Assembly: GCA_938005475.1 (NCBI GenBank)
Contig: CALLNY010000089.1
Span: forward strand, 1-32,200
Direction: 5' to 3'
DNA from: an uncultured Bacteroidia bacterium
GTDB taxonomy: Bacteria; Bacteroidota; Bacteroidia; J057; CALLMJ01
Length of the DNA: 32,200 bases
Part shown: one piece after another, positions 8,620-11,217 of the stretch
How positions within the stretch are numbered: the stretch's first letter is position 1
Layout: every line of letters begins with the position of its first letter
Notes under the pieces: model-generated
The model's input: only the letters and a program-made list of their open reading frames with translations
Databases searched by the model: none
Told to the model about the DNA's origin: nothing
Translations under genes and position numbers: made by a program

Positions 8620-9252
8620 TTACCATAAGGATTGATTTATCCAAGAAGCAAATAATTTTTCCACTTTGTAAGAAAATTCCATAGCAGGAATAGGGCTACT
8701 GTGGATATGATACTCATCCAAATCGTAATTCTCTTCTTTAAGCATTAAGAAAGGCTCTAGCTGATAAATTATAATTTTACCTTTTAAGGCTAACTTGTTT
8801 TGTTGCTCAGTAAAAAGTTTATTACTCATGGCAAAGACCCATTTTCGTTTGATACTGTAAAGATTAAGTTGATCAATGCAAAAAATGTAATCTAGGGGAT
8901 GCTTAATAATAGGTTTTTGATGGAAGGGATAAGATTTGACAACGGTTTCAAATTGTTTTCCTTCATTTAAAAAATATATTTCTTGGGAGTTAAGATATTT
9001 CTGGAACCAAAGAGTTAAAAGTTGACCTAATTTTATGGTAACTGCTGTTTTTAAATTTTCATCAGATAGACCGATAGTATCGTTGATTTGCAAATAGGAA
9101 GCCCAGTATTTAGCTTGATATCCATCAATCTGTAAATTTTTACGAGAGACTAAAATGCCTACTTTTTTGTGTTCAAAATTAAGCTTTTGGGCTTCAAGTT
9201 TTGTAATGCAAAAAAGAAAACTAATAATTATGCTCCAGTAAAGTTTCTTCAT
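8620..9252 (-). CDS. Exported protein of unknown function
   Basis: I do not recognise the family. The 210-residue product has a signal peptide (MKKLYWSIIISFLFCITKLEA, cleavage near AQK). The mature part is mixed alpha/beta, without cysteine pairs or obvious catalytic motifs. It contains FCIDQLNLYSIKRKWVFAMSNKLF and IIIYQLEPFLMLKEENYDLDEYH, suggesting a compact periplasmic domain. It overlaps the upstream lipoprotein gene by 32 bp, so the two are almost certainly cotranscribed and may act together. A role in the envelope is an inference from the signal peptide alone. Confidence 0.7.
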   Translation of the reverse strand: MKKLYWSIIISFLFCITKLEAQKLNFEHKKVGILVSRKNLQIDGYQAKYWASYLQINDTIGLSDENLKTAVTIKLGQLLTLWFQKYLNSQEIYFLNEGKQFETVVKSYPFHQKPIIKHPLDYIFCIDQLNLYSIKRKWVFAMSNKLFTEQQNKLALKGKIIIYQLEPFLMLKEENYDLDEYHIHSSPIPAMEFSYKVEKLFASWINQSLW

Positions 9253-9907
9253 AGAAATAGCTATCGGTTGTCAAAGTACGAGTTCCATTGGGATTGAGGT
9301 TGTATTTTTTATAATTATCATACCGTTTAATTTTGCCAATTCCCCTAGCATAAATTTCATAGGTATCTACTTCGGTTAATAATGAATTTTTGTTAAGCCT
9401 TTGTTGTACAAAGACACAGTGGGGATATGTTTTACCATTGATAATAACCGTTGTATCAATATTTACATAGGTATAATCTTCTTTTCCGAGATTATTCATT
9501 TCATTACCGTTCCACATATCATTTTGTTTGACAGGGAATTTAAGTACTAGGAATTTGGTATTTCCTTCAATTCTTTCAGCCCAATTTGCATCACGGTACT
9601 GGGTCCATAACTCATAAAAAGTCAAACTATCCAACACGTTTCCTTTAAGGATATTTAATCTACTGATAATACGGTTCTTCAAATCAGTTTCATTAGTATC
9701 TGTTAATTCTTTTTTGTAATAAAATTTAGGTATAGCGCCTTGCGTGGTATAGGTAGTATCCACTACTTGATAGATACGATATTTACCTTGTTCAATAGGA
9801 TATAAATTGAGGTCAGGGAATTCATATTCTATTTTTCTATTACAACCTAAATGAACGCCGCAAAAAATTATCCACAAGCTAAACTGAACTTTCAATGAGA
9901 TTTTCAT
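9221..9907 (-). CDS. Putative lipoprotein of unknown function
   Basis: A 228-residue product with a signal peptide ending in a lipobox (FCGVHLGC, Cys22). The mature region begins NRKIEYEFPDLNLYPIEQG, then KYRIYQVVDTTY, and continues as a beta-rich domain (FLVLKFPVKQNDMWNGNEM, YTYVNIDTTVIINGKTYPHC). This resembles uncharacterised Bacteroidota surface lipoproteins that start with a 'YP...G..W.Y.V' stretch. Start ATG 9907 is supported by a TAATTTTG box 13 bp upstream. The gene overlaps the next gene by 32 bp. Confidence 0.72.
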   Translation of the reverse strand: MKISLKVQFSLWIIFCGVHLGCNRKIEYEFPDLNLYPIEQGKYRIYQVVDTTYTTQGAIPKFYYKKELTDTNETDLKNRIISRLNILKGNVLDSLTFYELWTQYRDANWAERIEGNTKFLVLKFPVKQNDMWNGNEMNNLGKEDYTYVNIDTTVIINGKTYPHCVFVQQRLNKNSLLTEVDTYEIYARGIGKIKRYDNYKKYNLNPNGTRTLTTDSYFYEETLLEHNY

Positions 9908-9920
9908 TGGAAACTTTGCT

Positions 9921-9928
9921 CAAAATTA
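9921..9928 (-). promoter_or_regulatory. -7 box TAATTTTG before the lipoprotein gene
   Basis: Exact TAnnTTTG on the minus strand, 13 bp before ATG 9907. No -33 TTG at the usual distance. Confidence 0.4.
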
Positions 9929-9966
9929 GCAATAAAAGAAGAAAGAAAAAAGTTTTTTAAAAAAAA

Positions 9967-9997
9967 TTGCAAAATAAAGGTTACCTTTATAAGTTTC
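9967..9997 (+). promoter_or_regulatory. Promoter with an embedded palindromic operator
   Basis: TTG (9967-9969), a 20-bp spacer and TAAGTTTC (9990-9997), one mismatch from TAnnTTTG. The spacer holds a perfect inverted repeat at 9974-9990: ATAAAGGT, a central T, ACCTTTAT. A dimeric regulator bound there would cover the polymerase site. No downstream protein gene begins within the next 200 bp, so this promoter seems to serve the small transcript ending at the 10065-10104 terminator. Confidence 0.5.
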
Positions 9998-10003
9998 GCT
10001 TCA

Positions 10004-10104
10004 TAAATAGACAAAGAGCAAGCAAAAAGTCAAGTATTCAGCGTTTAGTTATTTTGTATTGAGACAAGCCTCCTAATTCTAAATAATAGGAGGTTTGTTT
10101 TTTT
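10004..10104 (+). ncRNA. Candidate small RNA, about 100 nt
   Basis: The segment lies between a predicted start (about 7 bp after the -7 box at 9990-9997) and a strong intrinsic terminator. It contains no ATG-initiated reading frame. It matches none of 6S, 4.5S/SRP, tmRNA or RNase P RNA as far as I can see. The nearest upstream plus-strand gene ends at 6957, so the terminator is unlikely to serve a long mRNA. The rest of the 9908-10206 gap holds an A/T run (about 9945-9968) and the nuoH promoter. Confidence 0.45.
10065..10104 (+). terminator. Strong intrinsic terminator
   Basis: An 11-bp stem (CAAGCCTCCTA pairing with TAGGAGGTTTG, one G-U pair), an 11-nt loop, then seven T residues at 10098-10104. 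The U tract exists only on the plus strand. Confidence 0.8.
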
Positions 10105-10159
10105 GTGGATTAAAGAGATGGCAATGAAGTTAAAAATGGAATAAAATTAGAGTTGAGAA

Positions 10160-10189
10160 TTTGGAAAAGAAAAAAATTGTTTAGATTTG
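10160..10189 (+). promoter_or_regulatory. Promoter of nuoH
   Basis: TTTG (10160-10163), an 18-bp spacer and TAGATTTG (10182-10189), an exact TAnnTTTG, ending 17 bp before ATG 10207. It lies downstream of the small-RNA terminator, so nuoH transcription is independent of that unit. Confidence 0.6.
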
Positions 10190-10206
10190 CAGTTTGAAAG
10201 ACCAAT

Positions 10207-11217
10207 ATGTTAGAGACATTAATATTAGCGTTGATTGTTTTATTTGTAATGATTACTTTGGCGGCGTATACGACGTATGCGGAGCGTAGAATATGTGCTT
10301 TCATGCAACAGCGTCCTGGTCCGAATCGGGTAGGTCCATTTGGGCTTTTACAACCCGCTGCGGATGGTCTAAAACTGCTATTGAAAGAAAACATAGTTCC
10401 TGCAGATGCTAATAAGACTATACATTTCATAGCACCGGTAATAACGGTAATGCTTGCTGTTTCTGCTCTGTGTATTTTGCCGTTTGCGCGTGGTGTCCAA
10501 GTTTTTGATGCTAACATTGGTATTTTATTTACTTTAGCAATAGCTTCGGTATCAGTATATGGAATTAGCATGGCAGGTTGGGCATCTAATAGTAAATACG
10601 CTTTACTGGGGGGGTTACGCAGTTCTGCTCAAATGATTTCTTACGAGCTATCCATGGGAATTTCTATTGTATCGGTGATTTTACTAACCAATCATTTTTA
10701 TCCTGGTGCAGAATATTTACGATTAACCAGCATCGTAGAAGCACAAAAAGATGTTTGGTTTATATTTATCAATCCATTAGGTTTTTTTATCTTTTTAGTA
10801 TGTGCTTTTGCGGAAACCAATCGTGCTCCATTTGATTTTGCTGAAGCAGAACAAGAATTAGTAGCAGGATTTCATACGGAATATACAGGAATGAAATTTG
10901 GTTCATTCTTCGTAGGAGAGTATATGAATCTATGGATTGCCTCTGGAATAATAACCACTTTGTTTGTAGGAGGATACAGAGGTCCCTTTGAAGAGATGCT
11001 TGGGGTTGCAAATTGGGATTTTATTAAACAGACTGCATGGGGTGTTTCTTGGTTCCTCGGCAAATCTGCATTCTTTGTTTTCGTATTTATATGGGTACGT
11101 TGGACATTGCCCCGCTTTAAGTATAATCAATTGATGAATATAGGGTGGAGATATTTTCTTCCTCTTTCAATCTTGAACTTAATGGTCATCGCACTCGTTT
11201 TGAATTTAATTCAGTAA
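10207..11217 (+). CDS. nuoH: NADH-quinone oxidoreductase subunit H (NuoH)
   Basis: Membrane subunit of respiratory complex I that joins the peripheral arm to the proton-pumping membrane arm and forms much of the quinone site. It has 336 residues, with about eight hydrophobic helices. The ubiquinone-site loop [18 protein letters not shown] lies at residues 26-43. The conserved cytoplasmic loop [19 protein letters not shown] is at 203-221 with the following FHTEYTG, and the C-terminal helix pair is complete. None of the other nuo genes is adjacent: upstream is a small-RNA region and downstream is clpC, 62 bp away. Separate placement of nuo genes occurs in some bacteria, so the rest of complex I is presumably encoded elsewhere. 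Confidence 0.96.

Follow-up and report, generated by a model that had tools for sequence, protein, structure and literature searches.

The window, that is, the whole stretch of DNA that was analysed, comprises 32,200 nt of contig C89 of a low-GC, 2.63-Mb Bacteroidota genome (G000), which was compared with a second genome from its genus (G001) and with about 20 genomes of the same order. A lipoprotein gene (9221-9907, minus strand) and nuoH (10207-11217, plus strand) flank a 299-bp intergenic region at 9908-10206, in which the following features are found (the contigs named here carry related copies, which are described below).

9967-9997, plus strand: alternative promoter TTG-N20-TAAGTTTC, with TTG at 9967-9969 and TAAGTTTC at 9990-9997
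9974-9990, either strand: perfect 17-bp palindrome, with 8-bp arms ATAAAGGT (9974-9981) and ACCTTTAT (9983-9990) and a T between them
9979-9991, plus strand: conserved promoter motif GGTTACCTTTATA, including the likely -7 box TACCTTTA at 9982-9989
9998-10104, plus strand: predicted sRNA of about 100-107 nt, its start placed within a few nt, with promoter and terminator and no ORF
10017-10022, plus strand: AGCAAG block of the sRNA, kept in five of six family members
10040-10058, plus strand: core AGCGTTTAGTTATTTTGTA, predicted single-stranded seed, exact in C52 and C4 and with one mismatch in C34
10061-10104, plus strand: intrinsic terminator with a 15-bp stem and an 11-nt loop, then seven T
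10160-10189, plus strand: independent nuoH promoter, with TTTG at 10160-10163, N18, and TAGATTTG at 10182-10189

The elements on which the first-pass annotation had relied, i.e., TTG-N20-TAAGTTTC, the perfect 17-bp palindrome, an ATG-free interval and a seven-T terminator, are all present in the sequence; in particular, no frame beginning with ATG lies between promoter and terminator. The arms of the terminator hairpin occupy 10061-10075 and 10087-10101, the run of seven T lies at 10098-10104, and this hairpin accounts for nearly all of the folding z-score of -3.49 obtained for 9999-10106. Because the terminator is one-sided (a T run is missing on the opposite strand) and is not preceded by the end of any annotated gene, it must serve a transcript that starts in the same intergenic region, and this on its own argues well for a separate RNA. 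As had been proposed, nuoH has a promoter of its own, whose near-consensus TTTG-N18-TAGATTTG pair agrees with the Bacteroidota -33/-7 consensus (PMC7366714). There are two nuoH-like genes in G000 (window 10207-11217 and C43:13328-14344), which are 39% identical. G001 has no clear nuoH orthologue, its sole copy being 40% identical to the window nuoH, and no orthologue of the divergent lipoprotein gene was found there; thus, synteny could not be used.

A covariance model (R1) that had the window sequence as its only input was applied to 100 genomes; its best matches after the window itself were G001:C4:25358-25445 (E 0.018) and G000:C52:10845-10934 (E 0.048; both per-genome E-values). The covariance search that had been suggested as a check thus returned relatives both in the same genome and in G001. 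The three sequences share AGCAAG.AAA.AGT.AA...AGCGTTTAGTTATTTTGTA, after which their terminator hairpins are wholly divergent. In a pattern search, the exact 19-mer AGCGTTTAGTTATTTTGTA was found twice in G000 (window and C52) and also in G001:C4, with 0.0001 exact copies expected per genome according to a second-order Markov estimate; near copies occur in G001:C34 (one mismatch) and in G000:C105 and G000:C90 (two mismatches each). The reversed 19-mer, used as a control, had no match in G000 or G001, and in none of 295 other genomes is the 19-mer present exactly or with one mismatch (two-mismatch matches only). A third G001 member, C66, surfaced in a 10-mer search. The family consists of three copies per genome in both genomes, namely the window, C52 and C105 in G000 and C4, C34 and C66 in G001, and its conservation supports the earlier claim of a separate, terminated non-coding RNA of about 100 nt. 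Because the neighbouring genes differ between the two genomes, copies were paired across genomes by sequence and not by synteny: the window pairs with G001:C66 through a long AGCAAG-to-CAGCG interval, C52 with G001:C4 through the common upstream TTGATAATCAATATGTTGAAAAA..., and C105 with G001:C34 through the same terminator. Beside the G001:C66 copy, a small regulator of the helix-turn-helix (XRE-like) type is encoded divergently, and a pepP-like gene lies downstream of this copy.

A second model (R2) was built from the family members, so the E-values of members under it are not independent; over 395 genomes of the class it gave scattered partial matches at chance level (E 0.001-0.02 per genome). 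The core pattern was absent from viral contigs, a comparison of the 252-bp intergenic region with the DNA of 60 relatives and plasmids yielded chance A-rich matches only, and no related RNA was found upstream of nuoH in order-level relatives, in which a TAnnTTTG-like promoter is often present at that place. Neither the window nor its relatives matched an Rfam family at the gathering score, and none of the eight member loci did so at E <= 1; the best sub-threshold matches were PyrR at 22.7 bits (gathering 54) and BTnc049 at 18.4 bits (gathering 81.9).

Within the family, GCGTTTAGTT is present in all six members, and its extension ...TATWTTGTA is found in four of them and, almost unchanged, in C105. 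The window and G001:C66, the members that diverge most, have only AGCGTTTAGTT of the core plus AGCAAG in common. Every copy is preceded by a promoter-like box and followed by a GC-rich hairpin with a run of T, and in predicted folds the core is unpaired or weakly paired. The core is identical or nearly so among paralogues, whereas terminators and flanks differ, the terminator hairpin sequences being alike solely in the C105/C34 pair. The copies have no reading frame in common that begins with a start codon, and the frames that exist differ between them. For C52, C4 and C105, the gene downstream is convergent, and these copies are thus not leaders.

It is reasonable to assume, with a probability of roughly 70%, that the locus is a stand-alone gene whose non-coding RNA is about 100 nt long, and that this genus has three such seed-sharing paralogues per genome. 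The family, its copy number, its promoters and terminators and the absence of a shared ORF can be read directly from the sequences, and several general features of trans-acting, seed-pairing sRNAs are found here: an own promoter and terminator, no conserved ORF, and a core conserved beyond its surroundings. Transcription, pairing, the targets and the sponge role considered below are inferred. In each paralogue, an individual promoter is followed by a largely unstructured 5' part, which holds a conserved core around GCGUUUAGUU, and by an individual intrinsic terminator. The common core would most likely serve as a seed that pairs in trans with other RNAs, in the manner of the FopS and GibS sRNAs, and the variable terminators would simply end the transcripts. 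Such a family would be a new one of a known kind, apparently restricted to one genus in the genomes compared (two of that genus).

Among characterised systems, FopS of B. thetaiotaomicron comprises 14 paralogous sRNAs with a single-stranded 5' seed followed by a terminator, which repress susC-like mRNAs at the start codon and are bound by RbpB (PMC11697453). Like FopS, the window family has several intergenic paralogues with own promoters, a conserved 5' seed predicted to be single-stranded, an intrinsic terminator and no ORF. Unlike FopS, which is stated to have been deposited in Rfam (PMC11697453), it has three copies instead of 12-15 and no sequence match to any Rfam family. The agreement thus concerns the multicopy seed and terminator architecture only; no FopS or GibS covariance model in Rfam was matched, and the family was therefore not filed as FopS. 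GibS of Bacteroides (PMC7366714) is likewise intergenic, with a conserved unstructured 5' seed and a terminator, but no sequence relation with the window sRNA was found. By its description, the near-palindromic second promoter motif of GibS, PM2, is a further point of resemblance, but it differs in having its boxes at -10 and -30 (PMC7366714). Rfp18 of Flavobacterium psychrophilum (PMC9723704) is also a stand-alone sRNA conserved within one Bacteroidota genus; however, it is strongly folded, has its predicted pairing region in a stem-loop, and is described as a single sRNA with no paralogous seed family (PMC9723704). The present comparison, on which alone the finding is based, would add a seed-sharing sRNA family outside Bacteroides, and it suggests that several sRNAs with one common seed might be a recurrent design in Bacteroidota.

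With respect to the promoter, GGTTACYTTT is kept just upstream in all four members with a longer 5' part (window, G000:C52, G001:C4, and G001:C66), and the TACYTTTN within it matches TAnnTTTG, the -7 consensus of Bacteroidota (PMC7366714). The counterparts of TAAGTTTC in relatives are TAACACTA, TAACCTTT and TAGGTTTA; thus, TAAGTTTC is less well conserved than TACYTTT. The palindrome had been proposed as the binding site of a dimeric regulator, and a repressible sRNA, controlled by such a transcription factor on ATAAAGGT-T-ACCTTTAT, would account for a perfect palindrome that overlies the promoter and is somewhat rarer than expected by chance. When the 299-bp intergenic region was shuffled 1000 times, 11 shuffles contained a palindrome under a strict definition (8-bp arms with two or more G/C each, spacer no longer than 1) and 182 under a loose one (8-bp arms, spacer up to 8, any composition). 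The palindrome is therefore only mildly unusual and by itself weak evidence, 1% to 18% of shuffles being as good; there are 14 perfect palindromes with 8-bp arms and spacers of 0-9 in the whole window. Its right arm is the -7 box, and the ATAAA of its left arm becomes TTTTA, TATTT or TATTC in the three relatives with the same promoter type, i.e., the left arm is conserved in none of them. No second site of the full palindrome exists in the genome, nor anything with fewer than two mismatches, and near matches are no commoner than those of a reversed control (42 vs. 58).

Outside coding frames, GGTTACYTTTNTA occurs in G000 only in the two sRNA genes (window and C52), and in both G000 and G001 every GGTTACYTTTNTA site that does not belong to the family falls within a coding frame, so the genome search for further sites brought no regulon of either the palindrome or GGTTACYTTTNTA to light. 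Neither of the two signs by which an operator would be recognised, i.e., conservation of both arms at orthologous or paralogous genes or further genomic sites, was seen. As the right arm is the box and the left arm is not conserved, the palindrome is probably incidental, a side effect of the -7 element in a single copy and no operator, and control by a dimeric regulator at this site appears improbable. The conserved GGTTAC beside the -7 box could nonetheless be a half-site of some factor, and G001:C4 has GGTTAC-TTTT-GTAACC. In addition, the block TTGATAATCAATATGTTGAAAAA, common to G000:C52 and G001:C4 at approx. 60-90 nt upstream of the core, contains a perfect 11-bp palindrome, TTGATAATCAA, which is an operator candidate better conserved than the palindrome of the window.

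It might also be argued that the core is a DNA element, such as a site of protein binding or recombination or the remnant of a dispersed repeat, and that the promoters and terminators around it are intergenic clutter. Copies do adjoin different genes in the two genomes, and GCGTTTAGTT also makes an arm of a terminator-like hairpin in G001:C23. However, all six cores have the same orientation, with a promoter-like box ahead of them and a T-tailed hairpin behind, no common ends or flanking repeats extend outside the RNA gene, and no viral-contig copy was found, which leaves a DNA element about as doubtful as the regulator at the palindrome. A transcription attenuator, in which the RNA would be the nuoH leader and the hairpin a conditional terminator, is very unlikely although nuoH follows on the same strand after 105 nt, given the near-consensus nuoH promoter between terminator and start codon, the convergent downstream genes of three other family members, and a search that found neither an antiterminator alternative nor an Rfam riboswitch.

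Under the preferred reading of a stand-alone sRNA gene, a candidate partner of the core is found elsewhere in G000.

G000:C90:32186-32208, match on the minus strand: complement of the core, in a separate promoter-terminator unit when read on the plus strand

This unit has a perfect -7 box, TATATTTG, followed about 75 nt later by ...CTCTACAAGATAACTAAACGCATGAGC and then by the terminator ACCTGCCATaaatcATGGCAGGTATTTTGTTTTTT. It lies at 1945-2060 of stretch L140, divergent from purL and upstream of a gene that we take to be DUF5103-like. Its RNA is complementary to GCGUUUAGUUAUUUUGUAGA along 20 nt, one of the pairs being G-U; 0.0003 such sites are expected per genome, the 20-mer behind this value having been chosen after the match was seen. 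In G001:C118 (stretch L216, near 1501), the neighbouring gene is 90% identical to its G000 counterpart and the intergenic region is strongly diverged, yet AACTAAACGC, i.e., 10 nt of the core complement, as well as an TAATTTTG box and a terminator, are at the same place. For the RNAs of the window, C52, C4 and C34, the duplexes predicted with the G000 partner were better than those of all 500 shuffles, whereas those with the G001 partner were weaker (2-7% level); the duplex of G001:C66 with either partner RNA was at chance level. In a search for mRNA translation starts with the 10-nt complement AACTAAACGC, none was found; apart from the partner RNA and a hairpin in G001:C23, the AACTAAACGC matches fall within coding sequence, mostly in antisense orientation.

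These observations are suggestive of the second small RNA, from the DUF5103-purL intergenic region, being a partner of the sRNA core. Bearing the core complement, it could act as a sponge, and a circuit of sRNA and anti-sRNA, in which the three GCGUUUAGUU-seed paralogues are titrated by a complementary RNA in a Bacteroidota lineage without characterised sRNAs, is put forward here tentatively, at somewhat less than even odds. Should the complementary RNA prove to be a true partner, this would provide a defined and testable sRNA-sponge circuit in which seed and anti-seed are both known. The hairpin in G001:C23 (21149-21186) is terminator-like, and its arms, AACTAAACGCATT and AATGCGTTTAGTT, correspond to the core and its complement, possibly by chance.
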